Shown piece after piece: positions 22,980 to 62,228 of a DNA stretch of 64,000 bases; within the stretch, counting starts at the first letter, position 1, and each line of letters starts with the position of its first letter. Both the position numbers and the translations under genes were made by a program. The DNA is from Runella sp. SP2. GTDB lineage: Bacteria; Bacteroidota; Bacteroidia; Cytophagales; Spirosomataceae. The stretch covers positions 5,580,001 through 5,644,000 of the forward strand of contig NZ_CP031030.1 of the NCBI RefSeq assembly GCF_003711225.1, read 5' to 3'. The notes beneath the pieces are model-generated. The model saw nothing but the letters and a program-made list of their open reading frames with translations, ran no database searches and had not been told where the DNA came from.

Positions 22980-24605
<1,626 letters not shown>

Positions 24606-29260: not shown

Positions 29261-29923
29261 TTACGAAACCCAGCCGTCTTTCAATCGAATGACTCGATTT
29301 CCGTAGGTGGCATTTACTTCTGAGTGAGTTACTTGTACGATGGATACTTTGTCTTTTTCGTTGAGTTCTTTGAACAACTCCATAATTTGCTCGGCTTGTT
29401 CAGAGTGCAAATTTCCCGTTGGTTCATCAGCAAAAATGATACTTGGTTCGTGGACAATCGCCCGCGCAATGCCCACCAACTGCTGCTGCCCTCCCGAAAG
29501 CTGGCTAGGGAAAAGGTCTTTTTTTGCGACCATATTGAAGCGGTCGAGCAATTCGGCCACCCTGCTTTTCCGCTCCGACGATGATGTTCCTTTGTACAAC
29601 AACGGAGTTTCGATGTTTTCATAAACCGTCAGTTCGTCAATCAAATGGTAAGCTTGAAAGACAAACCCAATGCGGTGGCGGTGCAGCTCAGTACGTTTTT
29701 TTTCACTGAGTTTGTCAACGCGTTCGTCAAAGAAGAAATATTCGCCTTCGGATGGTTCTTCTAACAACCCTAAAATGTGCAAAAGAGTGGACTTTCCTGA
29801 GCCTGACGGACCCATGATGGACACAAACTCTCCTTCATTTATGTCTAAATTGATGTTTCGTAGTACGTACGTTTTCCCAAATCCTGCGGGATAATACTTA
29901 GAAATACCTTTGAGCTGAATCAT
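29261..29923 (-). CDS. MacB/LolD-type ABC transporter ATPase
   Basis: The 220-residue single ABC domain belongs to the MacB/LolD class that drives mechanotransmission permeases: Walker A GPSGSGKST (38-46), Q-loop FVFQAYHL, signature LSGGQQQLVGIARAI, Walker B IIFADEPTGNL and the switch His in VTHSEVNA. Two residues differ from the class norm: Leu for Arg after the signature and His for Asp in the D-loop (GNLH). Both are, as I recall, common in Bacteroidota members. It is in an operon with the TolC-like gene. It is the only MacB-class ATPase in the window and so a candidate energy subunit for the many permeases at 35-64 kb. Confidence 0.9.
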   Translation of the reverse strand: MIQLKGISKYYPAGFGKTYVLRNINLDINEGEFVSIMGPSGSGKSTLLHILGLLEEPSEGEYFFFDERVDKLSEKKRTELHRHRIGFVFQAYHLIDELTVYENIETPLLYKGTSSSERKSRVAELLDRFNMVAKKDLFPSQLSGGQQQLVGIARAIVHEPSIIFADEPTGNLHSEQAEQIMELFKELNEKDKVSIVQVTHSEVNATYGNRVIRLKDGWVS

Positions 29924-42277: not shown

Positions 42278-44686
42278 TTATTCGACTTTTATCGAATGCG
42301 TAGGGTTTGATAATGAAGCTTTTATGGTTTGCACACTTACCAGAAGAATGATGACAATTCCGAAACTTCCTGCCACAAACGCAAACGATGTCCAGCTCAT
42401 TTCGACCCGATAGGCGTAGCTTTGAAGCCAATTTTTCATACTCACAAACACCAACGGAAACGCGACTGCCATCGCCAAGGCCGCTACCACCAAAAACTCC
42501 CGCAAAAACAAGCCCACCAAACTCGCAGGCGAAGCGCCCAAGACCTTACGAATTCCGAGTTCTTTGGTACGACGCGTCACACTGAGCGACACCATGCCGA
42601 TGACTCCTAACAATACAATGATAATGGCCAACAAGGTAGCCGTGTGGGCAGCTTTTTTGAGGCGAATTTCGGTTTGGTAGAGCTTTTGAAGCATGTCGTC
42701 CAAAAACTTATACTCAAAAGGAGCGCCAGGGAGTAATTCTCGCCATTTGTGTTCTACCGCCGCAACACCCGCTGCCACGGTAGCAGGCCGCAATTTGAAC
42801 GAAAAGTAGCGATAGTTATTCAGGGTTTTGAGGTGAACGAAGGCCAATGCTCCCACTTGGTCGCGCATGGATTGAAAATGAAAATCTTTGGTGACGCCCA
42901 CGATGTGAAAAATTTGTCCAAACCCTACCAAACGCACTTGCTGACCAAGGGCATTTTCGGGCGTAAAGCCGAGTTTTTTAGCCGCCGATTGGTTGATGAC
43001 GAGCGGTACTTGAGCACCTATTGCTGGATTTTGCCCAAAATAAATCCCGCTCGCCATCGGAATTTGGTAAGTTTGGGCGTAATGTTCGTCGGTTTGCAAC
43101 ACAGGCATAAACGTCGCTTGAGTAGAATCCTGCCCCAGCTTAAAAATGCCCGACTGAAACCCCGTACGTCCGTCGGGGATTTCGTACGACAACGATACCT
43201 CGCTCACCTGCGGCAAACGCGCCATTTCATTGCGAATGGTTTCCATTTTGGCCACGCCTTTCGCCGACCAATCGCGCGGGACAGACGCCCACACAATCGC
43301 CTCTTTGGAGTATCCCAGTTCTTTATCGAAGAAATAATTGACCTGATTCGTGATAATCACTGCCGCTCCAAACACAAACATCGCCACCGAAAACTGACCT
43401 ACCATGAGCGAATATTTAAAAAGGCGGTTTTCTTTCACGTTTTTGAGCTTGCCTTTGATGGACTCCACCGAGGGCAAAGAAGAAAGCACAAACGCAGGAT
43501 ATGCTCCCGCCAAGCCACCTACAAGTACCCCTAAACCGATGCCTGCCGACAAAAAAGCCAATGGGGCATCAGAAAAATGAAGGAGCTCTTTTCCCAAAAA
43601 CTCACTAAACGATGGTCGTAAAAGTTCGTACAAGCCCCACGAAACAACCGTGCTGAACAGGGCCAAAATGGTTGATTCGGCCAAAAACTGCCGCATCAAT
43701 TGGGTTTTTGTACTTCCAAGCGACTTCCGAACGCCAATTTCCTTGAGACGTGCCGCCGAGCCACCCATCGAAAGGTTGACGAAATTGACCACGGCCATCA
43801 GCAAAATAAAAAACGCAACCAAGCTCAAGGTAAGTATTGTCTTGTTCACGAGTCCGTTGTTGTCTTCGCGGTAAAGTGTGGAAAGGGGGGTAGGAATAAC
43901 TTCGATGTTTTCTTGAATGACTTTGGACGAATGGGTGGCTATCAGCTGTGCAATCGCTCGTTTTAACGCGGGAAGGGTTGCTCCTGCTCGGAGTTTTACG
44001 TAATTGACCACATACACGTTGTCCCAAGAGGTGATAGCTCCGTCGCGGCCAAAGAAGGCCAAGCTCCTCAGCGGAAGTAAGATGGGGGTTTCGCTCGACA
44101 CAAATTGCGTCACGGAATTGTAGGGGATATTGGCCAAAACACCTGACACCATGAAATCGCGGCGCTCGCCCGAAAATGACTCAATTTGAAGCGTTTGGCC
44201 CACGACGTTGGTTTTTCCGAAATATTTCAAGGCCGTTTTTTGCGAAATCACCACCGAATTGGGCTGACTCAAGGCTGTTTTGGGGTCGCCGTCCAACAAC
44301 GGAAAACCGTACATCGACAAAAGTGTAGAATCTCCCAGCTGAAGGTCTTCTCGGAAATTTTTGTCACCCTTTGACACCACCGATGTCACACCATCAAAGT
44401 GATAATAGTCTTCTACCAACGAAGGGAAATTTTCTTTCAAAGCCTTGGCCAGCGGCGCAATGGTCGTGATTTCGATGCCCATGTTGGGCTGTTTCCATTT
44501 CGATTTGAGAATGTACTGTCGGTCGAGGTCTTTTAGTTCGGCGTTCACCCGCCATTCTCCCCAAACGTAGCTTCCCATCAGCATCGTAAAGGTAATGCCC
44601 ACTGAAAGCCCAAAGACGTTGATGATAGCGTATAACTTGTTCTTTTTCAGGCTGCGCCAGCCGATTTTGAAGTAATTCTGAAGCAT
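42278..44686 (-). CDS. MacB/FtsX-type ABC permease, paralogue 2
   Basis: The 802-residue permease has the double-FtsX layout, but is the most divergent of the array. The first helix follows MLQNYFKIGWRSLKKNK, the first coupling motif is ARLKEIGVRKSLGSTK, and the second is RRTKELGIRKVLGASP. It has GVTKDFHFQSMR in the second periplasmic domain, lacks the DIHL motif of the first (it has STLYRED there), and ends NPTHSIKVE instead of NPVKSLKSE. It is the last permease of the array in transcription order, separated from the previous one by 118 bases that hold a palindrome. Confidence 0.88.
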   Translation of the reverse strand: MLQNYFKIGWRSLKKNKLYAIINVFGLSVGITFTMLMGSYVWGEWRVNAELKDLDRQYILKSKWKQPNMGIEITTIAPLAKALKENFPSLVEDYYHFDGVTSVVSKGDKNFREDLQLGDSTLLSMYGFPLLDGDPKTALSQPNSVVISQKTALKYFGKTNVVGQTLQIESFSGERRDFMVSGVLANIPYNSVTQFVSSETPILLPLRSLAFFGRDGAITSWDNVYVVNYVKLRAGATLPALKRAIAQLIATHSSKVIQENIEVIPTPLSTLYREDNNGLVNKTILTLSLVAFFILLMAVVNFVNLSMGGSAARLKEIGVRKSLGSTKTQLMRQFLAESTILALFSTVVSWGLYELLRPSFSEFLGKELLHFSDAPLAFLSAGIGLGVLVGGLAGAYPAFVLSSLPSVESIKGKLKNVKENRLFKYSLMVGQFSVAMFVFGAAVIITNQVNYFFDKELGYSKEAIVWASVPRDWSAKGVAKMETIRNEMARLPQVSEVSLSYEIPDGRTGFQSGIFKLGQDSTQATFMPVLQTDEHYAQTYQIPMASGIYFGQNPAIGAQVPLVINQSAAKKLGFTPENALGQQVRLVGFGQIFHIVGVTKDFHFQSMRDQVGALAFVHLKTLNNYRYFSFKLRPATVAAGVAAVEHKWRELLPGAPFEYKFLDDMLQKLYQTEIRLKKAAHTATLLAIIIVLLGVIGMVSLSVTRRTKELGIRKVLGASPASLVGLFLREFLVVAALAMAVAFPLVFVSMKNWLQSYAYRVEMSWTSFAFVAGSFGIVIILLVSVQTIKASLSNPTHSIKVE

Positions 44687-44804: not shown

Positions 44805-47225
44805 TCATTCTGATTTCAACGATTTTACGGGATTCATCAACGCTGCTTTGACCGACTGAACGCTGACTGTCAGCAAGGCCACCGCCAATACCCCAACGGC
44901 AGTAGCCGCTATGACCCACCAACTGATTTCGGTCTGGTAGGCAAACTCTTGCAACCACTGACGCATCAGATAATACGCGACGGGCGTGGCCAACACGACC
45001 GCGAAAGCAATCAGCTTGAGAAAATTGGTTGAGAGCATTACCGTAATGCTAAGCACCGACGCCCCCAACACTTTACGAATGCCAATTTCTTTGCGGCGGC
45101 GCTGTACGTTATAAGCCGTCAATCCCAAAATACCCAAGCACGAAATCGCAATGGCAAACACGGCAAAAATGCCAAACACTCGATTAAACTGGCGCTCATT
45201 TTGGTATTGGTGGGCAAAATTTTCGTCCAAAAACCAGTAACGAAACGGCTCTTCGGGGTAGATCTTTTTCCATGCCAATTGCATTGCACCAAGCGACGCT
45301 TCCAATTGTCGTACATTCATTTTTAGGGTCAAATATCCCAGCTCTTGCGGCGCAAAACAGTAGTAAAAAGTAGGCTTGGGTGCACTTTTGAGCGATTCGA
45401 TGTGAAAATCCTCTACGACCGCCCCTACCGTCATGGAGGAATTATTCTCGCTATTTTCGTAGGCAATTTGTTGACCAATAGCCGCTTCGGGCGACGGAAA
45501 GCCGAGCGCCTTTCGCATGGTTTCGTTGATGGTAATGGTGTTAAATCGCGCTACGCGGTCAGGGAAGAATTGATGTTTTCCTGCCAACAGCCGAATCCCA
45601 AACAAAGGGAAAAAGTCTTGGTCGGTTTCCACAAAATAGGAAGTAATTTTGGCAAAATCAGGTTTCTTTACCCAATGAAGCGGACGGTTGCTTCCCGCAA
45701 TCGTGTTGATGCCCAAACCTGGAACGATGTTGGACGAAGACGCGCCTTCAATCCCTACAACCTTTGCACATTCCGACTTAAAAAGCGCTAGTTTTCTAAA
45801 AATAGTACTGTCTCGGTTGTCTTCAGACGCAGGTACTTTGACCGACACCAACTGGTCGAGTTGTACACCAAGTTCGTGGTTATTGAGGAAATGTAACTGC
45901 TTTTCAATCACCAAAACGCCAAAAATCAGCCCCGCCGAGCAAGCAAACTGAACCACCACCAAGCTTTTGCGAAGCGTTTCGGTATTGCCCGCCACAAATC
46001 GCCCCCGCAGCACTTCCACGGGTCGAAACCCCGAAAGCTGCAAGGCAGGATACAGCCCCGCCACAAACCATATTAGGACAATAAACCCAATACTTACGCC
46101 CCAATATACCCCATCGACGGTGTTACCCGCCGATAAGTCGCGGCCAACGATGCCTCCAAACCAATCGGTTGACAGCTGCACACCTACTACTGCTGCCCCG
46201 AAGGCCACGCTGCTTATAACAAAGCTTTCCCACAAAAATTGTTGAGTGAGCGTGCCACGGCTTGCGCCCAGCACTTTTCGTACGCCTACTTCTTTGCCGC
46301 GTTCGTTGGCAAGTGCCGTTGTTAAGTTGATGTAATTCACAAAAGCAATCACCAATATCACCAAAGCAATGATACCCAAAAACTGCACCGTGCGCGCGCT
46401 GCCGTTGGGTTCGAGTTCGTAGGTAAGATTGGAATGGAGGTGAATGTCTTTAAAAGGCTGAATCACAAGTTGGATTCCTTCTTTTTTGAGAAAGGTTTGG
46501 TTGATTTCGGTTAATTTTTTGGTCACCCCGTCGGTCGAAGCATCGGGCGCTAGTTGGAAATAATTATAGTCCCAGTACGACTCAAAGTTGTCTTCGTGCC
46601 CCCGCGCGTACCGCGACGCGTACGACACCAACATGTCAAACTTGAGGTGGGTGTTTTGAGGTGGGTCTGCCACCACTGCCGTCACGGTGTAAGTTCCTGC
46701 TAGGCGACCATCTTTGAGACGCAGCCCTTTGCCAACTACCTGTTCATTCCCAAACAAGCGCTTGGCCGTCGTGCTGGTCAAAATGACCGTATGAGGTGCC
46801 GTCAGGCAATTTTGGGCGTTTCCTTCCACGATTTTTTGGGGAAACATGCGCAAAAACCCCTGGTCGGTGGCGTAATAACGACGAATATCAAAAGGCTGAT
46901 TGCCGACTACGACCGTAGCTTCGGGCGTATTGCCACAGTACAAACGAGCGTAATCGACCACACTTGGCACGGTTGCTTTGAGGGTAGGCCCTACGGCGCT
47001 GTGCGTGTTGGCGTCTTGGTTAACGACCGTTTTCCCATTGAGGGTTTGGTTATACACCCGCCAAATCGACCCCGCGTGTGGGCTTTGTAAATCGTACGTT
47101 TGTTCGTAACGCACGTACCGAAACAACAACAAACTCGCCGCCATTCCCAACACAAGACCCGCAAAATTGATGGCGGTAAAAATCGGTTGCTTCCGAAGCA
47201 AAATTTTGATGTAGTGTAGTAGCAT
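44805..47225 (-). CDS. MacB/FtsX-type ABC permease, paralogue 3
   Basis: This 806-residue permease starts MLLHYIKILLRKQPIFTAI, unlike the MLRNYLKIA start of its neighbours. The coupling motifs are ANERGKEVGVRKVLGASR and QRRRKEIGIRKVLGASVL. It has FKDIHLHSN in the first periplasmic domain and VVEDFHIESLK in the second (Glu for the usual Lys). The end is NPVKSLKSE. The first extracellular domain is rich in Thr and Val and contains NCLTAPHTVILT. It begins 2 bases after the stop of paralogue 4, so the pair is tightly coupled. Confidence 0.88.
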   Translation of the reverse strand: MLLHYIKILLRKQPIFTAINFAGLVLGMAASLLLFRYVRYEQTYDLQSPHAGSIWRVYNQTLNGKTVVNQDANTHSAVGPTLKATVPSVVDYARLYCGNTPEATVVVGNQPFDIRRYYATDQGFLRMFPQKIVEGNAQNCLTAPHTVILTSTTAKRLFGNEQVVGKGLRLKDGRLAGTYTVTAVVADPPQNTHLKFDMLVSYASRYARGHEDNFESYWDYNYFQLAPDASTDGVTKKLTEINQTFLKKEGIQLVIQPFKDIHLHSNLTYELEPNGSARTVQFLGIIALVILVIAFVNYINLTTALANERGKEVGVRKVLGASRGTLTQQFLWESFVISSVAFGAAVVGVQLSTDWFGGIVGRDLSAGNTVDGVYWGVSIGFIVLIWFVAGLYPALQLSGFRPVEVLRGRFVAGNTETLRKSLVVVQFACSAGLIFGVLVIEKQLHFLNNHELGVQLDQLVSVKVPASEDNRDSTIFRKLALFKSECAKVVGIEGASSSNIVPGLGINTIAGSNRPLHWVKKPDFAKITSYFVETDQDFFPLFGIRLLAGKHQFFPDRVARFNTITINETMRKALGFPSPEAAIGQQIAYENSENNSSMTVGAVVEDFHIESLKSAPKPTFYYCFAPQELGYLTLKMNVRQLEASLGAMQLAWKKIYPEEPFRYWFLDENFAHQYQNERQFNRVFGIFAVFAIAISCLGILGLTAYNVQRRRKEIGIRKVLGASVLSITVMLSTNFLKLIAFAVVLATPVAYYLMRQWLQEFAYQTEISWWVIAATAVGVLAVALLTVSVQSVKAALMNPVKSLKSE

Positions 47226-47227
47226 GA

Positions 47228-49645
47228 TTATTCCGTTTTCAAGGTATTGGCAGGATTGGTCAACGCCGTTTTAAGGGCTTGGTACGCTACGGTTCCTAAG
47301 GCAACCACCATCGCCACGGCCCCCGCAAAAACAAACATCCAAGCATTTATCTCGACGCGGTAAGCAAAATCTTGAAGCCATTGATTACCAAAGTAGTAGG
47401 CTACGGGACAAGCAATGAGAATGCCGATAAGCACCAGTTTCAGGAAGTCTTTTGACAAAAGCGCTACAATGCTCGTAACGCCCGCACCCAGCACTTTCCG
47501 AATGCCGATTTCTTTGGTACGTTGTTCGGTTACGAAGGTAGCCAAGCCAAACAATCCCAAGCAAGCAATCAAAATAGCCACCAACGACGTGTAGGTCAAA
47601 ATCTGTTTCCAGCGCAAATCGTCGGCGTAGCGTTCCATCCGAAAATCTTCCAAGAAATAATATTCCAAAGGAAGGTAGGGAACGTACTTTTTATACACTT
47701 TCTTAATCTGCGCCAATGCTTCTTTTTGGTGGTTGGCGGTAATTTGTACGTGAACACAGCCCGCTTGCCGACGGGTATCGCGCGCCCACACGATGGGTTT
47801 TATTTTCTCCTTGAACGAAGCATAGTGGAAATCTTTCACAATCCCGACGATATTCAATGCTTTATCTTGTTGGCGAATAGACAGGGTAAAAGGGTTTTGA
47901 CCTTTAGGGACAAATTCCCGTACAAAAGCCTCGTTGACAATGATGTTCGAGACCGTATCCAACGCATATTTTGACGAAAAATACCGCCCTTGCACCAACG
48001 GAATTCCCATCAATTGCAAATGATTTTCGTCGATGTACTCGTAGTAAGTATAGTCGGTACTTTTGCCATTAATCTGGTAAATGGTGCTGTTCCAATCCCC
48101 TGATTTGCTGGAAACTTTTTCGACGTACGGCAATTGCGCCAACTCATTTTTGAGCGGTGCGGCTACTTTTTCTATTTGATCCCAAGGTAGCCAAAAGCGA
48201 AGAATATTGTCGGTTTTGTAGCCAAGTTCGGCCTGAGCGATGTAATTAAACTGACGAGTCGCAATAACCGTCCCGATAATCAACACTCCTGCCAACACAA
48301 ACTGAAACACAACCAATGCTTTCCCGAAGGTTTGTCGGCCTGTTAGTTTAAACGGCCCACGCAAGGTTTCGATTGGACGAAAACCTGATAGCACCAACGC
48401 AGGGTAAAATCCTGCTAAAAGCGCTACCAAAAACAACAGTGCGCCAAAAAGCACCAAGGTAGTCGGTTGAAAAAGGTACGTGCTTTCGAGGTGTTTGTCG
48501 GTCAATTCGCTGAAAGTAGGCAACAACAGATAAGCCAATAACCACGACGGAATAAACGCCAAAGCAGTCAGCAAAAACGATTCTCCCAAAAACTGCGCTA
48601 AAATGTGCTGACGCGTGCCTCCCGTTGCCTTTCGGATACCAATTTCTTTGGCGCGTTTGAGCGAGCGAGCCAGCGTAAGATTCACAAAATTGATACAGGC
48701 AATGACCAAAACCAACAACGCCAACCCTGTCAAAATCTTCGGATAACGCTCATTTGACCAGTATTCTAAGCCATTGGAGGCATAATATTCGGGGTTTAAG
48801 TGGATTTCGTGCAAGGGTTGCAGCTTAAACTTCATTTCGTAGGTTTTTCCCTCTTTGTTGTCTTTACGCACACTTTCTAAAAAATCAGCGGTGTACTTCT
48901 TTGTCACGGACTCCATTTTTTTGCCCAACTGCGCCACGTTTGCTTTGGGATTCACCAGCAAAAACGTGTTCAAACTTGCATTAAACCAATTTTCATCGTT
49001 GGCGCGCTGCTGAGGGTCAGGTGAAACGAGGTGGTCGATAGACATCAACAGATCAAACTGAATCGACGAGTTGGCGGGCGGATGTTTGACTACCGCCGCC
49101 ACCACAAACGGCTTAAAAGCCGCCCCTTCATCACCGATTTGGATTAGCTTCCCCACTGGGTCTTGGCTTCCAAAATACTTTTCGGCCATGCGGTCGGTAA
49201 TCACCACGTTTTTTAAATCCTTGAGGGCTGTGCGGGCGTCTCCTGCCAATACTTCAAACGAAAACATGGTCAACACGGAGTTGTCGGCGTACATCAAATT
49301 CTCTGTAATCCCTTCATTACCTTTCTTCACGAGGGTATTCCAGCCGTTTTTAAAGCGGCAATACGCCTCAAAATCACCTAGTTCACGCACAAACGCGGGG
49401 CCTTGCGGCATCCCTGTGTTTCCCATTTTACTCAGATTACCTTGCAGGTCTTTGCGGTCTTGTATCAACCGAAAAATCTGCGGGCCTTTCGCGTGCATTC
49501 GGTCAAAGGACAAATCATCTTTGACGTACAGCATAATCAGCATCACCACCGTCAGGCCGAGGGTGAGCCCTGCAAGGTTGACAAACGAATACACTTTGTT
49601 TTGCCAAAGGTTCCGAAAAGCGATTTTGAGGTAGTTGCGTAGCAT
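47228..49645 (-). CDS. MacB/FtsX-type ABC permease, paralogue 4
   Basis: The 805-residue permease has the standard start MLRNYLKIAFRNLWQNKVYS. Coupling motifs are SLKRAKEIGIRKATGGTR and EQRTKEIGIRKVLGAGV. LHEIHLNPEYY marks the first periplasmic domain and IVKDFHYASFK the second; it ends NPANTLKTE. The first 45 bases of the gene and the spacer before it form part of a 107-base sequence repeated almost unchanged one gene upstream (52028-52134). Spacing to paralogue 5 is 15 bases. Confidence 0.88.
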   Translation of the reverse strand: MLRNYLKIAFRNLWQNKVYSFVNLAGLTLGLTVVMLIMLYVKDDLSFDRMHAKGPQIFRLIQDRKDLQGNLSKMGNTGMPQGPAFVRELGDFEAYCRFKNGWNTLVKKGNEGITENLMYADNSVLTMFSFEVLAGDARTALKDLKNVVITDRMAEKYFGSQDPVGKLIQIGDEGAAFKPFVVAAVVKHPPANSSIQFDLLMSIDHLVSPDPQQRANDENWFNASLNTFLLVNPKANVAQLGKKMESVTKKYTADFLESVRKDNKEGKTYEMKFKLQPLHEIHLNPEYYASNGLEYWSNERYPKILTGLALLVLVIACINFVNLTLARSLKRAKEIGIRKATGGTRQHILAQFLGESFLLTALAFIPSWLLAYLLLPTFSELTDKHLESTYLFQPTTLVLFGALLFLVALLAGFYPALVLSGFRPIETLRGPFKLTGRQTFGKALVVFQFVLAGVLIIGTVIATRQFNYIAQAELGYKTDNILRFWLPWDQIEKVAAPLKNELAQLPYVEKVSSKSGDWNSTIYQINGKSTDYTYYEYIDENHLQLMGIPLVQGRYFSSKYALDTVSNIIVNEAFVREFVPKGQNPFTLSIRQQDKALNIVGIVKDFHYASFKEKIKPIVWARDTRRQAGCVHVQITANHQKEALAQIKKVYKKYVPYLPLEYYFLEDFRMERYADDLRWKQILTYTSLVAILIACLGLFGLATFVTEQRTKEIGIRKVLGAGVTSIVALLSKDFLKLVLIGILIACPVAYYFGNQWLQDFAYRVEINAWMFVFAGAVAMVVALGTVAYQALKTALTNPANTLKTE

Positions 49646-49707
49646 GGTGTTTAGGTCGAATTATTCCGATTTCAATGATTTAACAGGATTCATCAGGGCG
49701 GCTTTAA
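49601..49707. repeat. Junction direct repeat, copy A
   Basis: 107 bases covering the first codons of paralogue 4, the spacer and the last codons of paralogue 5. They match 52028-52134 with only two differences, in the same orientation, 2427 bases away. Confidence 0.9.
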
Positions 49708-52072
49708 ATGATTGAACGCTTGTTGTCAACAGAGCGATGAAAAGGCTCAGTAACGCGGCTATTACAAAATACCACCCACTTATTTCGATTCGATAAGCAA
49801 ATCCCTGAAGCCAGGTACGTAGTAAATAATAAGCAATAGGAGAGGCTAGAATGATACCCAAAAAAACGAGTTTCAGTGATTCGCCTGAAAGCAACCGAAC
49901 AATACTAATACTACTTGCACCCAGCACTTTACGTATTCCAATCTCTTTCGTACGTTGTTCTGAGGTAAAAGTAGCCAACCCAAATAGCCCTAGGCACGCT
50001 ATCAGGATAGCAAAACCTGTAAAGGCAAAAATGATTTTCCCAATACTAATTTCATACTCATAAAGCTTACGATAAGCTTCATCAAGAAAATAATAATCGA
50101 ATGGCTTATCTACTTTATAGCTATCATACACATGCTTTATGACCGCTATTTTCTCCCGAACGTTGGCATTTTTTTCTAACTTGAGGTAGATGTATTCATG
50201 AAATACATCGTTTTTGTGAATAAGAAGCGCCATTGGGCGAATCTGACGATGCAGTGGAGAAAACGGAAAATCTTTGACCACGCCTATCAAGTGTTTCTGT
50301 GTTCCGCTACCAATATCAAGGGGGTGTTGGTAATTTTTGGCATTTATTCCTAGTGCTTTTGCCGCAGCCTCATTGATGACGATAGAGCCATGACTATCTT
50401 GAATTTCCTTTGAGGTAGGCGTAATGTCCCAATGCACACGCATAGTGTTAATAAATTCTTTATCAACAGGAAAACTATTTACACTGACTACTTTATTGGT
50501 GTGCAATGCTTTTACATCCAAGCTATTCATGTATCCGCCATAAATTGGTAAATCCGAGGAGGTCACAGATTCCACCCCGCTGATTTGGCTAAGGCTATTT
50601 TTAAGAGATGTATAATGTTTGTCAATACCAGTTTCGGGATCTAAACGAATCCCGATGACCTGTTCGCGTTCCAAACCAACATCTTGCCTGAGAAATAAAT
50701 CCAATTGTTTTTTGATGAGTATAGAAGCGATAATAAGTACAATCGAGATAGTGAATTGAAACACTGTCAGCGATTGCCTTACGGTTGTCACTCCCTTACC
50801 CATTCCTAATTTTCCCTTCAAAATAGAAATTGGAGCAAAATTCGCAAGGAGAAGCGCAGGATAACTCCCTGATAATAGGATACTAACCAAATAAATTCCA
50901 ATAGCAGGTAGCCAAAAATAAGGTGTCCATATAAAAGATGTCTCAATCTTGAGCTGTAATAGCTCATAAAAAACAGGTCTTAATAAACCAAAAAATAATA
51001 GTGCTCCCCCAAAAGCCAAGCTTACAAAAAGGGTAGATTCCAAATAAAATTGGACAATGAGGGATTTACGCGCCGCTCCTACGGTTTTTCTAAGCGAAAC
51101 TTCTTTCGCACGAGTGGTTGCGCGGGCCGTTGTGAGACTTACGTAATTGATGAGTGCCAAACTCAGTATTAGAGCCGCAATGATACCGAACGTATTAACT
51201 GTTCTTTGAATGCTTTTATGGGAAGCTTCAAAATGGTATTGGGGCAAATGGTATAAATAAAATTTGTCATTTTTGCTCCTGATTTTTGCTTGTTCGCTTA
51301 AAACTGACGGGATTTTAGAAGCAACAGTCGCAGCATTACTTGCATTTCTTAACAATAAATAGGTGTCAAATCCACCCGTAGCCCCAACCGACTCCAGTTC
51401 TTTGTTTGCCTGCTCTTTTCCCAAAATAGATTCGTATCTAGCACGGTCCATGGCACGTTGGGTTTCGATATCGGCCAAAAAGTTAAATTGAATCGAGGAG
51501 TTTATTGGTGGGTCAGCAACAACCCCAACGACTTCAAAAAGATGTTGTTTGTCATATGTAATTGTTTTTCCAATTGGGTCAGTACTACCAAAATACTTTC
51601 TAGCCATACTTTCAGTAAGTACCACTGTGTATGGACGCGAAAGAACAGTCTGACGGTCTCCTTTTAGTAGGGGAAAAGAAAATACCTCAAAGAAACGATT
51701 GTCGGCAAAACCAAAGCCCGATTCGTAGTTTTTATGCTGTACATCGGACATGATTTGCTTAGTGGAATAGCTACCCACTTTAATGCGGGCATAATTTTCA
51801 ACCTCAGGCGAAGCCTGCTGAACAGCTTCCGCAAAGCGATAAGACATCCATGGGACAGTATAAGATTGTTCGCCTTCCTCATGCTTGTATTCTACTTTTA
51901 CAATGCGGTCAGCGTGTTCGTGAAAACGGTCAAAGCTGTACTCATGAGCCACGTATAGCACAATCAGCAAGGTAACTGCCAAACCCATTGCCAGCCCTGC
52001 AATGTTGATAAAGCTGAAGACCCGATTTTGCCAAAGGTTCCGAAAAGCGATTTTGAGGTAGTTTCGTAGCAT
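49661..52072 (-). CDS. MacB/FtsX-type ABC permease, paralogue 5
   Basis: The 803-residue permease starts MLRNYLKIAFRNLWQNRVFS and ends NPVKSLKSE, but its interior departs from the others. The first coupling motif is TTRAKEVSLRKTVGAA, with Ser-Leu for Gly-Ile, and the DIHL site reads QYHFEASH. The second motif is standard, EQRTKEIGIRKVLGASS, and GVVKDFPFSPLH replaces the usual DFHF. To the eye the middle of the gene is more AT-rich than its neighbours. It is bounded on both sides by the 107-base direct repeat, so it is the unit that could be lost or gained by recombination. Confidence 0.88.
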   Translation of the reverse strand: MLRNYLKIAFRNLWQNRVFSFINIAGLAMGLAVTLLIVLYVAHEYSFDRFHEHADRIVKVEYKHEEGEQSYTVPWMSYRFAEAVQQASPEVENYARIKVGSYSTKQIMSDVQHKNYESGFGFADNRFFEVFSFPLLKGDRQTVLSRPYTVVLTESMARKYFGSTDPIGKTITYDKQHLFEVVGVVADPPINSSIQFNFLADIETQRAMDRARYESILGKEQANKELESVGATGGFDTYLLLRNASNAATVASKIPSVLSEQAKIRSKNDKFYLYHLPQYHFEASHKSIQRTVNTFGIIAALILSLALINYVSLTTARATTRAKEVSLRKTVGAARKSLIVQFYLESTLFVSLAFGGALLFFGLLRPVFYELLQLKIETSFIWTPYFWLPAIGIYLVSILLSGSYPALLLANFAPISILKGKLGMGKGVTTVRQSLTVFQFTISIVLIIASILIKKQLDLFLRQDVGLEREQVIGIRLDPETGIDKHYTSLKNSLSQISGVESVTSSDLPIYGGYMNSLDVKALHTNKVVSVNSFPVDKEFINTMRVHWDITPTSKEIQDSHGSIVINEAAAKALGINAKNYQHPLDIGSGTQKHLIGVVKDFPFSPLHRQIRPMALLIHKNDVFHEYIYLKLEKNANVREKIAVIKHVYDSYKVDKPFDYYFLDEAYRKLYEYEISIGKIIFAFTGFAILIACLGLFGLATFTSEQRTKEIGIRKVLGASSISIVRLLSGESLKLVFLGIILASPIAYYLLRTWLQGFAYRIEISGWYFVIAALLSLFIALLTTSVQSFKAALMNPVKSLKSE

Positions 52073-52134
52073 GGTGTTTACGTCGAATTATTCCGATTTC
52101 AATGATTTAACAGGATTCATCAGGGCGGCTTTAA
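52028..52134. repeat. Junction direct repeat, copy B
   Basis: The second copy of the 107-base junction sequence, covering the start of paralogue 5, the spacer and the end of paralogue 6. A less complete third version, interrupted by a palindrome, spans about 54418-54545. Confidence 0.9.
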
Positions 52135-54451
52135 TCGACTGGTAACTTACGGTGAGAAATGCAATTACGACCGTCAACAGCCCCGCAAACACAAAAATCA
52201 TTGGATTGATCGTAATTTTGTACGTGTATTCTTCCAACCACCGATTCATTATCCAATATGAAAGTGGGCTGGCTATCACAATGGCCACCAAAACAGGGCC
52301 GACAAACCCTTTTGACATCAATAGCACAAGTTGAAACACGCCCGCTCCCAGTACTTTTCGTATCCCAATTTCTTTGGTTTTACGCTGCGTCAGCGATAAA
52401 GCCAATCCTAGCAAGCCCAAACAAGTGATAAAAATGGTTAAAAATGAAAACCCTTGGGCCATGGCAGAAAGGCGCGCGACGCTTTCAAATTTTTCGTTGT
52501 AGGCTTCATCCACAAAATGATACTCAAACGGATAGTTAGGATTATATTTCTTAAAAATCGCCTTCGCTTTTTCTAGGTTTTCTTTAATGGGATTTTCGGG
52601 GTTATATTTGACATGAAGCGCGTTGAAAAAATTCATTTTCGCCCCCGCAATTGTCACCGCATTCACTTCACGAAAAGGTGATTGCATCACAAAATCTTTC
52701 ACCACGCCAATCACCTGAAACTCCCAACCTCCGTCAGTGATTTTTTCGCCAATGGGGTTTTTGAAACCCATCATCTTCTTGGCGGTTTCGTTAATAATTA
52801 CCCCCGAAGAATCGGTTGGATAAGATTTTAAATCGAAATCACGGCCTTCGATAATTTGTAACCCCAACGTTTTTACAATTTGATCATCCGCTCCAAAACG
52901 GTCAATGTTCCTGTGGTCGTCGGTGGCTTTACCTCGCCATTTCATTCCACCCGTGTTGCTCCAAGCTTCGGTAATTGGTGAAAAGGTCTTGACCACCGAA
53001 ACTGCCGCGTTACTTTTCAGTAATTCGGTCTTAATGAGGTCATAATTTTTAGATATATCTCCTTCAACTGCATGGTACACCAAGTTTTCTTTGTCATAAC
53101 CGACTGTCCTATTTTGGGCATATTCCAACTGTTGTTTGATGATAATTGTACAAGAAATGAGTAACACCGAGCACACAAACTGGCAAACGACCAGTATTTT
53201 CCGTGGTGTAAGGGGCGAAGTAATATTGATGTAGTTTCCTTTGAGTACTTGCAAAGGATTAAAGCTAGAAAGAAACAACGCAGGATACGAACCCGCCACT
53301 AGCCCCGTTGCTACAACAAAGACCAAAGCACATCCAATCCATTGATAATCAAACCAATTAATCGAAATTTTTGATCCAATAAGCTCATTAAAAGTAGGGA
53401 GGCTTAACGTGACAATGACCACCGCCAATCCGCCTGCCAACAAAGCGATAAGAATGGATTCGAAATAAAACAGTTTGATAAGTGAAAACCGAGTAGCCCC
53501 CGACGCTTTTCTGACCCCCACTTCTTTGGCTCGTTTTTCGCTCCGAGCAGTGCTTAAATTCATGAAGTTGATGCACGCAATCAGCAATATCAAAAGGGCA
53601 ATGACCGTAAAGTTGCGAACTTGCTCAATTTTACCACCTTCTTCTACCCCATTTTTAAAGCTTCCGTAAAGCCGCAATCGTTCAAGAGGATAAACGAAGG
53701 TCTCCCAGTTGGCTGTTTCTTTGTCGTAACGCTTTCTTAGGTGTTTGGCTTTGAGGTTAAACGCTTGGGCATCTGTTCCTTTTTTTAGTAACACATAGGT
53801 AGTGGTAGAGTTGTTACCCCAGTGCAAACTCTCCATGTTGTTGACCACCTTGAACCGCCACGGCACCAAACAATCAAAATTAAAATCGGTGTTGGATGGC
53901 AGTTGTTTTACGACTCCTGTCACCACAAAATCACTTTCGTTATTGAGCTTGATGATTTGACCAAGCGGGTCGCTATTTCCGAATAGTTTTTGGGCAAAAT
54001 CCTGTGTGATTACCACGTTATTGACGCCGTTTAGGCAGGTTTTGGCGTCGCCTTTGAGCAATGGAAAGGTGAATACGTCCAAAAAAGTAGAATCCACTAC
54101 CTGAACAGTCCCTTTAATTTTGGTCTCTTTTGCTTGAACCAAATATTTATCTGGCCAATCGACCCGCACCATTTTTTCAACTTCGGGATAGTCTTTTTGG
54201 AGGGCAGGTCCCATGGTTTGAGGTGTAACGTTCCAGCTACTGGTCTTGCCTTTTTCAGTGACTTGATTCCACGCCTGAAAAATTCGGTCTCGGTTTTCGT
54301 GGGTGTTTTCAAAGTTCATTTCGTCATTGACCCAAAGTAAAATCAATGCCGATGCCGAAAATCCGATGGCCAGTCCTAAGATATTGATACTGCTAAAAGC
54401 CCTATCTTTCAGCAAATTCCGAAAAGCGATTTTGAGGTAGTTTCGTAGCAT
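52088..54451 (-). CDS. MacB/FtsX-type ABC permease, paralogue 6
   Basis: This is a 787-residue permease from ATG 54451 (MLRNYLKIAFRNLLKDR). The open frame runs 13 codons further upstream, but those codons lie in a palindromic repeat. The coupling motifs are SEKRAKEVGVRKASGATR and QRKTKEIGIRKVLGAGV. With paralogue 8 it forms a subgroup: both have LWVNDE after helix 1, no DIHL motif, a GG near the end of the first periplasmic domain (EEGGKIEQ / NTGGSIRY), and DFVMQSPF / DIMAESPF where others have DFHF. It ends NPVKSLKSE. Confidence 0.88.
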   Translation of the reverse strand: MLRNYLKIAFRNLLKDRAFSSINILGLAIGFSASALILLWVNDEMNFENTHENRDRIFQAWNQVTEKGKTSSWNVTPQTMGPALQKDYPEVEKMVRVDWPDKYLVQAKETKIKGTVQVVDSTFLDVFTFPLLKGDAKTCLNGVNNVVITQDFAQKLFGNSDPLGQIIKLNNESDFVVTGVVKQLPSNTDFNFDCLVPWRFKVVNNMESLHWGNNSTTTYVLLKKGTDAQAFNLKAKHLRKRYDKETANWETFVYPLERLRLYGSFKNGVEEGGKIEQVRNFTVIALLILLIACINFMNLSTARSEKRAKEVGVRKASGATRFSLIKLFYFESILIALLAGGLAVVIVTLSLPTFNELIGSKISINWFDYQWIGCALVFVVATGLVAGSYPALFLSSFNPLQVLKGNYINITSPLTPRKILVVCQFVCSVLLISCTIIIKQQLEYAQNRTVGYDKENLVYHAVEGDISKNYDLIKTELLKSNAAVSVVKTFSPITEAWSNTGGMKWRGKATDDHRNIDRFGADDQIVKTLGLQIIEGRDFDLKSYPTDSSGVIINETAKKMMGFKNPIGEKITDGGWEFQVIGVVKDFVMQSPFREVNAVTIAGAKMNFFNALHVKYNPENPIKENLEKAKAIFKKYNPNYPFEYHFVDEAYNEKFESVARLSAMAQGFSFLTIFITCLGLLGLALSLTQRKTKEIGIRKVLGAGVFQLVLLMSKGFVGPVLVAIVIASPLSYWIMNRWLEEYTYKITINPMIFVFAGLLTVVIAFLTVSYQSIKAALMNPVKSLKSE

Positions 54452-54471
54452 GAGGTTTAGGGGTTTGTGAC

Positions 54472-54499
54472 GTAGAGACGTTGCATGCAACGTCTTTAC
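54472..54499. repeat. Palindromic repeat between permeases 6 and 7
   Basis: 14-base arms (GTAGAGACGTTGCA) with one mismatch, the same family as 44770-44799. The right arm contains the TAA stop of paralogue 7 (54496-54498), so the repeat supplies its end of translation. Confidence 0.9.
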
Positions 54500-56928
54500 T
54501 CGGATTTCAATGATTTGACAGGATTCATCAGGGCGGCTTTAATCGACTGGAAACTCACCGTCAAAAACGCCAAAAGCATCGTGGACACGCCCGCTGCCAC
54601 AAAAATCCACCACGGAATTTCGACCCGAAACGCGAAGTCTTCGAGCCAAGTGTTCATCGCGTAGTAGGCTAGCGGAGCGGCAATCAAAAAGGCAATTCCT
54701 ACTAACTTCAAAAAGTCTTTGGAAAGAAGGCCCACGATGCTCCACAAGCTAGCCCCCAGCACTTTTCGAACGCCAATTTCTTTGGTACGCTGCTCGGCGA
54801 TGTAGGTGATGAGCCCAAACAAACCCAAACAAGCAATAAAAATCGTCAGAATGGCAAAAATGAGCGCAATGGTGCCGACTCGCTGCTCGGCCTGGTACAT
54901 TTCGTTGAAAGAATCATCAAGAAAATGGTAATTGAACGGCATCCCCGTCGAGAGTTGTTTCCACTGGGCTTCAATTCGCTTGATAAGTTGCTGCGGGTCA
55001 GCTGTATTGATTTTAAAAGCCATGTCCCAGCCACTACGCCCGTACCGAAAGCTCAAAGGGCCGACGTTTTCCCGCATCGACGAATAATGAAAATTTTTCA
55101 CTACGCCAATTATCGTCAGCGTACTTGTTTCGGAACCATTGCCAGTACCCGTATAGAGGTTTTTGCCCACGGGGTCATCATATCCCAACATCTTCGCCGT
55201 TTCTTCATTGATAATAATCGAGCTAGAATCTGCCCCAAATGCTTTGGAAAAATTACGCCCCTTGATGATTTCCATGCCCAAAGTCGGAATGTATTCTTCA
55301 TCAATCACCCAGTTTTGCATGTTAAATCCGTTTTTCACGTCAATGATGGGCGTTTTTGAGTACGAATTATCGCTACGCGACGAGTTGGCTACGGGTAAAT
55401 ACCCCGCAAAAGCCCCCGCTTTTACCCCCGCCATTTTTTTGGCTTCTTCCTTAAAAACGCGGTTATTTTCTCCCAACGACGACGTACCCGTCACCACCAA
55501 CACTTGGTCTTTTGAAAATCCGAGGTTTTTGTGTTGGATGTAATTGAGCTGACGGTAAATGATAAAGGTAGAAATGACCAATACCAACGACGTCACGAAC
55601 TGGAACGTCACCAACGCATTTCGGAAATTGGAGCGTTTAAAATTGGCATTGAGCTTGCTTTTGAGGACTTCAATTGGCTTAAACGACGACAAGAAAAAGG
55701 AAGGATAATAACCTGCCAACACCCCAACACCAAGCGGTAATGCCAATAAAAAAGGCAAGTACGCAGGTTGATACATTGTAGTCGGCGTAAATTCTTTGCC
55801 CGCAATTTGATTGAAATAAGGCAACAATACCGTCGTAAATACCAACGCAATGCCAAAAGCCAAATAACTCGTCAGTATCGACTCAGCCATAAACTGACCA
55901 ATCAAACTGTTTCGTTCGGTGCCTAATACCTTCCGAATCCCCACTTCTTTGGCGCGGTTGGCCGAGCGAGCCGTGCTCAAATTCATGAAGTTGATGCAGG
56001 CAATGAGCAGTAAAAACAAAGCCACAATCGAAAAGATATACACATATTCGATATTGCCATTGACCCCAAACTCGTATAATTTGTTGGATTTGAGGTGAAT
56101 GTCCAGCAGCGGCATCAGCGAATACTGAATGTAATTCCCCGCTTTTTTGAACTCGTCCATGCTTTTAACATCTATGAAGGCTTTGGCTTGTGGGAGAACA
56201 TATTTGTCAACCAAACCGTCAAATTTATTCTCAAGTTGCTTATAATCAACTCCTTCTTTTAGCTTGACATAGGTATAAAAATTGTGGCTCAAGAAATTTC
56301 CGAATGTGTAATCCACATTTTTGAACGAAAAAATAATATTGGTTCTGAAGTGCGAATTTTGAGGTATATCTTCATACACGGCCGTTACTTTATACTCTTG
56401 AGGATTGTTAACTCCCGTCGCTAGGATTTTTCCCACCGCAGAGCCAGGCCCAAAAAACTTCTGAGCAGCCGACTGACTAATGGCAACGGTGTTAGGGGCA
56501 TTGAGGGCTGTTTTGGCATCACCTTCCAACACCCGAAATGGAAAAACTTCAAAAAAGGTAGAATCTGCATTGACGCAGTTGTGTTCTACCAAAAACTCAT
56601 TGCCTTTTCGGATAAATCGGCGACTGTTTTGGGCATACAAACGCGTGTATTGCTCCACCTCAGGATAGTCTTTTTTGAGCGTTGGGCCAAAAGGGTCGGA
56701 GCTTAGTGCCATTTTCATCTCGGTTCCCCCAAATTTGATGTCTGACTGTACGCGATAAATACGGTTAGCATCTTTGAGGTAGCGGTCGTAGCTCAATTCA
56801 TCGACTACGTACAGCGAAATCAGCAAAAAACAGGTAAGCCCAATGGCCAACCCAAAAATGTTGATGACGCTGTAAAGTTTGTTTTTGAGGAGGTTTCTCC
56901 AAGCAATTTTGAGGTAATTCCGTAGCAT
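54496..56928 (-). CDS. MacB/FtsX-type ABC permease, paralogue 7
   Basis: The 810-residue permease starts MLRNYLKIAWRNLLKNKLYS. Coupling motifs are SANRAKEVGIRKVLGTER and EQRTKEIGVRKVLGASL. LLDIHLKSNKLYE marks the first periplasmic domain and VVKNFHYSSMR the second. It ends NPVKSLKSE, with its stop codon inside a palindromic repeat. The 44-base gap to paralogue 6 is wider than usual because of that repeat, which may reduce translation coupling. The start is 13 bases after paralogue 8. Confidence 0.88.
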   Translation of the reverse strand: MLRNYLKIAWRNLLKNKLYSVINIFGLAIGLTCFLLISLYVVDELSYDRYLKDANRIYRVQSDIKFGGTEMKMALSSDPFGPTLKKDYPEVEQYTRLYAQNSRRFIRKGNEFLVEHNCVNADSTFFEVFPFRVLEGDAKTALNAPNTVAISQSAAQKFFGPGSAVGKILATGVNNPQEYKVTAVYEDIPQNSHFRTNIIFSFKNVDYTFGNFLSHNFYTYVKLKEGVDYKQLENKFDGLVDKYVLPQAKAFIDVKSMDEFKKAGNYIQYSLMPLLDIHLKSNKLYEFGVNGNIEYVYIFSIVALFLLLIACINFMNLSTARSANRAKEVGIRKVLGTERNSLIGQFMAESILTSYLAFGIALVFTTVLLPYFNQIAGKEFTPTTMYQPAYLPFLLALPLGVGVLAGYYPSFFLSSFKPIEVLKSKLNANFKRSNFRNALVTFQFVTSLVLVISTFIIYRQLNYIQHKNLGFSKDQVLVVTGTSSLGENNRVFKEEAKKMAGVKAGAFAGYLPVANSSRSDNSYSKTPIIDVKNGFNMQNWVIDEEYIPTLGMEIIKGRNFSKAFGADSSSIIINEETAKMLGYDDPVGKNLYTGTGNGSETSTLTIIGVVKNFHYSSMRENVGPLSFRYGRSGWDMAFKINTADPQQLIKRIEAQWKQLSTGMPFNYHFLDDSFNEMYQAEQRVGTIALIFAILTIFIACLGLFGLITYIAEQRTKEIGVRKVLGASLWSIVGLLSKDFLKLVGIAFLIAAPLAYYAMNTWLEDFAFRVEIPWWIFVAAGVSTMLLAFLTVSFQSIKAALMNPVKSLKSE

Positions 56929-56941
56929 GATGATATGGTTT

Positions 56942-59323
56942 TTATTCCGATTTCAATGATTTTACAGGGTTGACCAAGGCCGCACGTAGCGCCTGGTAAC
57001 TAACCGTTAGCAACGTAATGACCAGTGCACCAGCAGCAGCCACGGCAAACACCCACCACGAGATTTCAACTCGATAATCGTAGCCATTCAACCAATCATT
57101 GAGGTAATAGTACGCAATCGGACTGGCAATGAGGCTCGAAAGCAACACCAAGCCGACAAAATCGCGAGAAAGCATTTGCCACAAATTAGGAACACTTGCG
57201 CCCAACACCTTCCGAATGCCGATTTCTTTGGTGCGTTGCTCGGCCACGAAGCTCGCCATTCCGAACAAGCCCAAACACGAAATCAGGATGGCCAAGACTG
57301 CAAAATAGAGCGAAAGCGTACCGATACGCTCTTCGGCCTTGAACTTATTACCGTATTGTTGGTCAATAAATTCGTACGAAAAAGGCACATTCTGCACGTA
57401 CTTTTTCCAGATGCGTTCGAGGGTGGCAATGGATTTACTCGAACTTTGAGCAGGGTTGAGTTTGATGGTAAGATTATACAAATCCTTATCGCGGGTATGA
57501 TACAACGACGGGCGCACGGGATAAAACGGCGACTCAGCCATAATATCACTCACTACCCCAATGATGGTATAAGGCTTTCCATTCCATTTTAAAATTTTAC
57601 CAATGGGGTCTTTGAACCCTAAAAACTTCGCCGCTGCCTCGTTGATGATAAACGCCGCCGAATCGGTGGCAAACTCACGAGAGAAATCGCGGCCTTGTTT
57701 AATTTTCCAACCCACCGTTTTGCCCCATTCTTTGGTGACACGACTGTTTGGAAAATCAACGCCCAAGTTCGGGTCTTTCCCTTCCCAATCAAAACCGCCG
57801 TTGGTATTCCACACGCCCGTAAGTGGACTGTTGGAAGCCGTCAATTCTTCAATGGCCCCCGCCGATTTCAGTTCTCCTCTAAATGCCTCAAAGTGATCCT
57901 GAATTTCTTTGTCCATTCCCATGCTTATCAAGCCGTTACGTTCATAGCCAATCGGGCGATTTTTAGCGTGTTGAATTTGTTGGTAAACGATGATTGTGCC
58001 AATAATCAATACCACCGAAACCGTAAATTGGGTCGTTACCAACACCTTGCGCGGAATGGCCGCCCATTTTCCCACCCGAAACGTCCCTTTGAGGACTTTC
58101 AAGGGCTGGAAAGACGATAAGTATAACGCTGGATAACTTCCCGCCAACAAACCCGTAAGCGAAATAAACGACAAACTAAGCAGCCAAAAAACGGGATTTG
58201 CCCAAGGAAGTTCAATTTTCTTATCAGCTACTTCATTAAAAAATGGCAGACACAGTGTGACCAATACCAGTGATACCACAAAAGCAAACACCACCACCAT
58301 GTACGACTCCGAAAAGAACTGATTAATCAACTGCGACCGCACCGACCCTACGGCTTTGCGAATACCCACTTCTTTGGCGCGTTTTTCGCTGCGGGCGGTG
58401 GCTAGGTTCATAAAATTGATGCAAGCCAACATCAACACAAACACCCCAATGATACCAAACATCCACACGTAGCGAATGCTTCCTCCTGTGTTGATGCCTT
58501 CTTTAAACTCACTTTCCAACGCCCATTTACTCATGGGGTGCAAAAACGCCTCCCATTTATACTTCAATTCTTCCTTACTCAGATTGTTGGCTTTGACATT
58601 TTTAATGCGTTTGGAAGCCGCCTGCATTGATACATTATCTGCGACTTGGACGAATGTCTGGCTAAAGTTGCTATCCCAAGGGTCTTCCATTGTTTTTACC
58701 CAAGGATTGTCAATCAACCAAAGCGACCACGGCATGATGACCTTCACGTTGCGAAACGAGGTATTGTAAGGCAAATCTTCGTAAACACCCGTCACCTTCA
58801 CGTCGTAGGTTCGGTTGATTTTCAGCGTTTTGTCCAACGGATTTTGGTCACCAAACAGCGATTTGGCCACCGATTCCGACAGCATAATCGAGTACGGGTC
58901 TTTTAAGCCTGCGTACGTTCCGTAGCGCATTTTGAGGCTAAGCATTTCAGGTGCGCCTTCTTCAAAGTAAATCCCCGATTTTGTTACGTGGTTGCTTCCT
59001 AACGACAACACGTACGAGCCTTCCCACGAGGCCTGCACTACGTGCTTGAAGCTACTCCCGTATTTTTGCCGAATTTCGGGGGCCATCTGGGCAGGATTAG
59101 AGGTTTGGGTTCCAATTTTCCCGTTGAAAGTAGCGTGCTGCATGACCTGCGCGATACGCTCATAATTTTGATGGTAGGTATCAAACGACAATTCGTCGTT
59201 GACCCAAAGTCCAATCATCATAGCTACTGCCATTCCCACCGCCAGTCCACCGATATTGATGAAACTGTACATTTTGTTTTTGACGAGGTTGCGCCACGCA
59301 ACTTTGAGATAATTCCGAATCAT
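56942..59323 (-). CDS. MacB/FtsX-type ABC permease, paralogue 8
   Basis: The 793-residue permease starts MIRNYLKVAWRNLVKNKMYS. Coupling motifs are SEKRAKEVGIRKAVGSVR and EQRTKEIGIRKVLGASVP. It shares with paralogue 6 the features of a separate subgroup (LWVNDE, no DIHL, and GVVSDIMAESPF in the second periplasmic domain), so two subgroups of permeases alternate in this part of the array. It ends NPVKSLKSE. The gap to paralogue 9 is 12 bases. Confidence 0.88.
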   Translation of the reverse strand: MIRNYLKVAWRNLVKNKMYSFINIGGLAVGMAVAMMIGLWVNDELSFDTYHQNYERIAQVMQHATFNGKIGTQTSNPAQMAPEIRQKYGSSFKHVVQASWEGSYVLSLGSNHVTKSGIYFEEGAPEMLSLKMRYGTYAGLKDPYSIMLSESVAKSLFGDQNPLDKTLKINRTYDVKVTGVYEDLPYNTSFRNVKVIMPWSLWLIDNPWVKTMEDPWDSNFSQTFVQVADNVSMQAASKRIKNVKANNLSKEELKYKWEAFLHPMSKWALESEFKEGINTGGSIRYVWMFGIIGVFVLMLACINFMNLATARSEKRAKEVGIRKAVGSVRSQLINQFFSESYMVVVFAFVVSLVLVTLCLPFFNEVADKKIELPWANPVFWLLSLSFISLTGLLAGSYPALYLSSFQPLKVLKGTFRVGKWAAIPRKVLVTTQFTVSVVLIIGTIIVYQQIQHAKNRPIGYERNGLISMGMDKEIQDHFEAFRGELKSAGAIEELTASNSPLTGVWNTNGGFDWEGKDPNLGVDFPNSRVTKEWGKTVGWKIKQGRDFSREFATDSAAFIINEAAAKFLGFKDPIGKILKWNGKPYTIIGVVSDIMAESPFYPVRPSLYHTRDKDLYNLTIKLNPAQSSSKSIATLERIWKKYVQNVPFSYEFIDQQYGNKFKAEERIGTLSLYFAVLAILISCLGLFGMASFVAEQRTKEIGIRKVLGASVPNLWQMLSRDFVGLVLLSSLIASPIAYYYLNDWLNGYDYRVEISWWVFAVAAAGALVITLLTVSYQALRAALVNPVKSLKSE

Positions 59324-61862: not shown

Positions 61863-62228
61863 TTAGTTGATGGGCGCTGTAAATCGCAATGTATTTCCGC
61901 TTGGGTCAGTAACATAAAATTCTCTTCTGCCCCAAGTTTGGTCTATTGGCCTCAAATGCACAGGCGATTCTATTCTATGAGATTGATTTAGTCCTCTTTG
62001 GGTATATTTTTCAAAAAGGATATCTACATCATCCACAAGCACATTGATATCCAAGCCAGATACACCTTCCCAAACAGAAAGCTGTAATTCTGCCTCTCCG
62101 TTTATTAAATCCACCCCCCAATCATCGAATGTAAAATCTGGGTACTTGATTTCAAAGTCAAGGATTTTGGTGTAGAAATCAATAGCTTCTTGAATATCTC
62201 TTACTTTAAAAAAAGGGACTATTTTCAT
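61863..62228 (-). CDS. VOC-family (glyoxalase/bleomycin-resistance-like) protein
   Basis: The 121-residue protein is one vicinal-oxygen-chelate unit: MKIVPFFKVRDIQEAIDFYTKILDF (quoted in part) starts the first beta-alpha-beta-beta-beta module, and GRREFYVTDPSGNTLRFT closes the second, with the metal-type Glu in REF. Members act as glyoxalases, dioxygenases or drug-binding proteins; which one is unknown. It is out of place within the permease array: 28 bases after paralogue 10 and directly before a permease remnant, so it seems to have arrived or been joined by a rearrangement. Confidence 0.8.
   Translation of the reverse strand: MKIVPFFKVRDIQEAIDFYTKILDFEIKYPDFTFDDWGVDLINGEAELQLSVWEGVSGLDINVLVDDVDILFEKYTQRGLNQSHRIESPVHLRPIDQTWGRREFYVTDPSGNTLRFTAPIN

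Follow-up and report, generated by a model that had tools for sequence, protein, structure and literature searches.

How do the joints between neighbouring genes come to be almost identical when the genes they join are not? The question is raised by a window of 64,000 nucleotides (contig 1, positions 5580001–5644000) from a 7.6-Mb Runella genome, here G000, which carries part of a long series of MacB/FtsX-type permease genes. A sequence-only reading of the window had placed 107-bp direct repeats with two mismatches at successive permease junctions, each copy covering a gene start, a spacer and a gene end. Both points are confirmed, on the minus strand, for three genes transcribed in the order F-E-D (Table 1).

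Table 1. Features of the window, in window positions except where extended window coordinates are named.
Feature	Position	Strand	Remarks
ABC-F-like ATPase	22980–24605		label by eye, without family scan
pheT	32540–34969		label by eye, without family scan
Permease A	35124..37517	minus	series member
Permease B	42278..44686	minus	series member
Permease C	44805..47225	minus	series member
Permease D, 805 aa	47228..49645	minus	MacB_PCD and FtsX domains (Pfam PF12704, PF02687)
Junction repeat copy 1 (E|D)	49601..49707	minus	E, last 44 coding bases plus stop; spacer of 15 bp; D, opening 15 codons; 105/107 identical to 52028–52134
Permease E, 803 aa	49661..52072	minus	gene between the two repeats; MacB_PCD and FtsX domains
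Junction repeat copy 2 (F|E)	52028..52134	minus	F, last 44 coding bases plus stop; spacer of 15 bp; E, opening 15 codons
Permease F	52088..54451	minus	MacB_PCD and FtsX domains (domain scan on 52088–54454)
G|F junction	54417..54542	minus	weaker relative of the repeats (71%); 44-bp spacer holding a palindrome
Permease G	54496..56928	minus	series member
Permease H	56942..59323	minus	series member
Permease I	59336..61765	minus	absent in G006 and G009, where J and H are joined
Permease J	62257..64000	minus	extends beyond the window; series continues to 181709 (extended window coordinates)

The two copies lie 2427 bp, one gene, apart and differ at 49637 (G/T, a synonymous CGC versus CGA in codon 3 of D and E) and at 49654, within the spacer. 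BLAST returns the pair as 109 bp at 98.2%, as does the junction-repeat comparison under strict scoring (+1/−3), and in a whole-genome search copy 2 is the best match of copy 1 other than itself. Identity outside the 107 bases is 0.4–0.6 across the next 10 to 60 bases (ungapped, 0.45 in the 20 bases on each side, and 0.57 and 0.50 out to 60 bases). The joined permeases are indeed very different inside, as had been claimed: the proteins share 35.5% (D–E), 34.7% (E–F) and 34.9% (D–F) identity, and the best other ungapped 107-mers of the same three pairs match at 77, 63 and 73 positions, respectively. Conserved protein ends explain part of the likeness of the repeats but not their identical synonymous codons and spacer, because codon agreement at identical residues is just 0.416 inside adjacent paralogues.

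The series to which these genes belong holds at least 35 full permease ORFs on a single strand, spanning about 147 kb (35124 to 181709 in extended window coordinates); one more ORF, touching unread sequence, is left out of the count. It consists of runs with other genes between them, including two gaps of more than 20 kb. A PF12704 profile search of G000 finds 77 places, all except 14 (our own count of the list) in the series region. In a per-gene Pfam scan that took in D, E, F, q10 and J, the first three score 78–127 bits against curated cut-offs of 25.5–27 for PF12704 and PF02687; q10 also passes, and J in part. Permease prefix domain 2 (NF038404, cut-off 35 bits) is found at the N terminus of q10 (74.9 bits) and q03 (85.0 bits), and the same profile scan has no match in C, D, E or F. 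Against the 'duplicated orphan permease' model ADOP (TIGR03434, cut-off 622.3 bits), all six proteins tested (C, D, E, F, q03 and q10) match, with E-values of 1e-72 to 1e-89 and mostly at full length (permease E best over 259–803), and none passes, at 243–301 bits. These scores mark the six as relatives of ADOP rather than members. ADOP proteins likewise form large paralogous families; PMC11573002 gives 28 and 33 RAST-annotated copies in two Dyadobacter species.

The junction effect is not peculiar to F-E-D but general. We compared codon agreement at identical residues in five genomes (G000, G001, G004, G006 and G009), over 175 orthologous, 105 adjacent paralogous and 166 sampled non-adjacent paralogous pairs; end comparisons leave out 3 of 186 permease ORFs without a start motif (two in G009, one in G006). 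At the gene end, adjacent paralogues come close to the agreement seen in orthologues; at the start the gap is wider, and in the interior they behave like any other paralogues. Over the last five codons agreement is 0.70 for orthologues, 0.68 for adjacent and 0.45 for non-adjacent paralogues, and over the first five it is 0.81, 0.68 and 0.41; the next five codons inward give adjacent and non-adjacent values of 0.66 versus 0.51 at the end and 0.71 versus 0.57 at the start. Interior values are 0.743, 0.416 and 0.426 for the three classes.

Pooled agreement of adjacent pairs, 0.648 over the first 12 codons and 0.630 over the last 12, was reached by none of 2000 gene-order shuffles, whose maxima were 0.569 (start) and 0.514 (end), or 0.587 and 0.524 when genes were shuffled within subfamilies (prefix-bearing versus prefix-free permeases). 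The neighbour signal drops between lag 1 and lag 2. Genome by genome, the gene-end value was reached by 0 of 2000 shuffles in each of the five, free or within subfamilies, and the start value by 5, 0, 0, 0 and 3 free shuffles and by 46, 5, 1, 4 and 2 subfamily shuffles (G000, G001, G004, G006 and G009, in that order); the five are relatives and so not five independent tests, and the shuffles ignore shared ancestry. The start-of-gene signal of G000 is the weakest, at 0.576, or 0.536 without the pairs holding E.

The same junctions can also be compared between lineages. The F|E and E|D junctions are 97% alike in G000 and 75% alike in G001 (R. defluvii), which has the F-E-D order too, with spacers of 40 and 66 bp versus 15 bp each in G000; between the two genomes the orthologous junctions are 76% and 62% alike. 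The earlier note had held that the same paralogues with unlike junctions in a related genome would speak against its reading. G001 presents just that, and what it tells against is an old repeat common to both genomes; it favours conversion inside a single lineage. In G001, D and E have ATGATACG in common, where ATGCTACG stands in both genes of G000 and in D of G004, G006 and G009. The clearest second case, the triple q11-x1-q08, occurs in that order in G001 and G006 with junctions 95% and 92% alike within each genome and 81% and 79% alike between them, each genome having two near-identical spacers unlike those of the other. Around both E and x1, spacers match between neighbours and not between orthologous junctions, while the D|C junctions of G000 and G001 agree fully.

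Defining full concerted evolution as both within-genome values exceeding both orthologous values, we find it in 4 of 35 triple comparisons, from three different triples (I-H-G, q11-x1-q08 and, twice, G-F-D); a further 2 show it on the mean (F-E-D in G000 versus G001 among these), 12 partially and 17 not at all. Conversion is local, patchy and recurrent, not constant. Between G001 and G006, 150-base windows are 97–100% identical along G and 96–100% along F save the last (91%), yet over the 120 positions about the G|F joint identity is 81%, with a change in spacer length counted. In 22 of the 26 orthologous pairs whose interior identity is 94% or higher, the final 48 coding bases are less alike than the interior (the binning omits 2 of the 175 pairs, with interiors below 0.75).

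Each of the five genomes has long junction repeats one gene apart, such as 416 bp at 93% in G000, 518 bp at 95% in G001 and 164 bp at 95% at G|F and F|D in G006. Under strict scoring (+1/−3, at least 60 bp and at least 88% identity), 39 of 156 repeat pairs in the five genomes lie mostly inside genes, and the longest pair of each genome is a junction pair, two genes apart in G004 and G006. Repeat length depends on the block, the longer junction pairs listed running from about 90 bp up to 526 bp, which argues against a fixed site of the kind that an integron-like cassette system would use. With lenient scoring (+1/−1), which stretches repeats into poorer flanks, repeats of at least 80 bp and at least 80% identity are found in 14 of 67 consecutive junction pairs versus 9 of 886 other pairs; the E pair is outside those 14.

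The gene content of the series differs between relatives in steps of single genes. Orthogroups were formed at 75% identity and the relatives read on one contig each, with G001:C25 and G004:C28 among the contigs left out, so that a 'missing' gene may sit elsewhere, E excepted, for which whole genomes were searched. For permease E, a search of the 12 other Runella genomes finds a relative at 81% in G001 alone (R. defluvii being the closest named relative); the other matches listed are at 42–43%. E is present in G000 and G001 and absent in G004, G006 and G009, where F is joined straight to D. Across the five genomes there are eight such cases of presence or absence of one gene with its flanks joined (q06, q03, q02, I, E, x1, x21 and x40). 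Between q11 and q08 stand q10-q09 in G000, x1 in G001 and G006, x11-x38 in G004 and nothing in G009, and the order of q06 and q07 is reversed between G000 and G001. Flanking homology is weakly linked to turnover (p = 0.04 when gene instances are counted; with orthogroups, p = 0.08 or 0.02, depending on how strictly 'variable' is defined), and the variable genes I and q02 have little of it at present. The proposal that a crossover between the repeats would remove or double exactly one permease with frames intact agrees with the three F–D joints; that recombination at junctions caused these gains and losses, and in which direction, is what we infer from them.

Sequence divergence in the series is at odds with that of rpoB and pheT and is read as interspecies transfer. 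Between G000 and G006 the permeases have a median DNA identity of 0.927 (21 pairs, 0.738–0.989), with rpoB at 0.826 and pheT at 0.743; between G006 and G009 the permease value is 0.857 (23 pairs), with rpoB at 0.965. The ABC-F-like ATPase gene of the window, at 0.913 between G000 and G006, weighs against a simple baseline reading and may itself have moved. Parts of the series have probably been transferred between species. E, at 0.775 between G000 and G001 versus a median of 0.921 for 23 permeases, may have been replaced or acquired separately. The spacers around E start with TTCGACSTA on both sides in G000 and G001, and F|D spacers in genomes without E do not. Permease genes near-identical between distant Runella genomes were also seen on G001:C10 and G006:C1 (up to 0.989 to G000). 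G008, with pheT 98% identical to that of G000, has a 4.9-Mb genome with 6 MacB_PCD matches versus 77; it has most or all of the series missing, which marks the large series as accessory.

We think it probable that conversion and crossover at junctions explain this tandem series. The junctions (the last ~15 codons, the spacer, the permease prefix domain in some blocks and the first ~10–15 codons) would be the main stretches similar enough for homologous recombination. Neighbouring junctions would convert each other and so stay similar and recombinable, while interiors, too diverged for pairing, would drift freely. Through the same homology, unequal crossover or DNA from outside could take out, insert or exchange exactly one permease with the frame kept, and the 107-bp repeats at the two joints of E would record one recent conversion in the G000 lineage. 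Such an account is parsimonious, as it would call on ordinary homologous recombination at junctions (conversion and unequal crossover, presumably homology- and RecA-dependent) and interspecies transfer. Its central element, gene conversion at junctions, is well supported by the sequence comparisons.

Purifying selection alone, with membrane-anchor motifs at the protein ends and translation signals in the spacer holding unrelated copies alike, would account for the ends being kept across the series (paralogue amino acid identity of 0.62–0.85 in the two outermost five-codon bins versus 0.33–0.35 mid-gene) and for the complete match of certain orthologous junctions such as D|C. It does not predict that synonymous agreement should depend on adjacency or, for some triples, on lineage, and the spacers around E and x1 match their neighbours rather than their orthologues; we regard it as improbable. 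Still less probable is a recent tandem duplication of whole genes whose interiors were later replaced or evolved fast. The repeats do lie one gene apart in like orientation, but D, E and F are 35% identical, interior codon agreement is equal in adjacent and non-adjacent pairs, and orthologous interiors are well kept (medians of 0.846–0.955 by genome pair, for pairs chosen at ≥75% amino acid identity). The original suggestion of 'recent gene conversion or duplication' is therefore upheld in its first half, conversion being neighbour-specific, junction-confined and, where seen, lineage-specific, and not in its second.

Exchange of cassettes is the most serious competitor, if still an unlikely one as the main process: horizontal exchange through shared junctions would leave the likeness as a footprint of insertion rather than of conversion within a genome. 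The discordant permease identities of G000–G006 and G006–G009, the low identity of E and the motif opening both of its spacers all fit. The different homogenisation of q11-x1-q08 in G001 and G006, however, needs conversion after the lineages parted, and cassette exchange and within-genome conversion probably both act. Near-identical repeats in tandem arrays are prone to assembly error by collapse or misjoining, and collapse was an alternative that the sequence-only reading had itself raised. Such an error is very unlikely here, since junction repeats are present in all five assemblies, the two copies are not fully identical and each has flanks of its own, and the G000 assembly has 4 contigs and 99.98% completeness.

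Junction conversion and crossover have partial parallels elsewhere. The closest published one known to us is the lpl cluster of S. aureus, in which homologous recombination at a conserved segment reportedly reshuffles tandem paralogues, their evolution not being bound by gene limits alone. That cluster, of a different protein family, is said to have its conserved recombination site inside each gene, with variable ends and a two-gene unit. In the Runella series it is the junction that is conserved, and an entire gene interior forms the unit; a two-gene unit of the lpl type does not apply here because conservation is highest at the gene ends and drops towards the interior. Bacterial multigene families such as PE_PGRS likewise undergo conversion between paralogues (a subject treated by PMC1762029 and PMC13061034), whereas homogenisation in the series centres on the joints and leaves most of each gene interior untouched. 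Among the papers listed in a literature search that lay largely outside subscription journals, none deals with this array or with conversion at the junctions of permeases like these. Known processes account for the array; its scale and geometry, with constant joints and variable genes, are unusual.

In domain content the permeases resemble MacB/LolCDE-type ABC transporters, including the DarB/DarD darobactin exporter. The six proteins score 95–150 bits against DarB (NF038008, cut-off 700 bits), and both they and the neighbouring ATPase fall under the equivalog cut-offs. That DarD/LolD-like ATPase gene, an open frame of 243 aa at 181745–182476 in extended window coordinates (L014:17745–18476, minus strand), is the immediate upstream neighbour of q19, the first permease of the series, and relatives 94% identical to it lie upstream of q19 in G006 and G009. 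Judged from a motif search, which may overlook some ATPases, the series differs from DarB/DarD in having many permeases per adjacent ATPase, and the one upstream of q19 may serve many of them. One could go further, tentatively and with more doubt than belief, and see the series as an open permease library common to Runella species, in which conversion keeps the junctions interchangeable as adapters and any permease may be inserted, taken out or exchanged as a unit behind a shared DarD/LolD-like ATPase; if so, the export or envelope-stress repertoire could change fast. Conversion and crossover at the junctions would account for the way in which very large series of MacB/FtsX-type permeases are built and reshuffled. 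Recombination here seems to maintain its own substrate, in that the likeness of the joints permits their conversion and conversion in turn preserves the likeness, with coding interiors free to diversify. Single-gene turnover also becomes directly testable in culture.

Three further features of the region deserve mention. A second DarD/LolD-like ATPase gene (29261–29923) lies beside a TolC-like outer membrane efflux gene (27912–29228) and lgt (26863–27708), and these genes are a possible set of exporter partners. A glyoxalase-family gene (61863–62228) stands between I and J in G000; the J|I spacer is 43 bp in G001 and 28 bp in G004, so the gene was either gained in G000 or lost from those genomes. 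The palindrome AGACGTTGCATGCAACGTCT lies in the G|F spacer at 54476–54495 and again past the window end at 64829–64848 (L009). We considered it as a mobile recombination site and rejected it, as it is absent from F|E and E|D and its 22-base form GAGACGTTGCATGCAACGTCTC occurs at two places only in the genome. Similar copies occur in spacers of the relatives, repeated in one of them, and the palindrome is possibly a small mobile or REP-like element.
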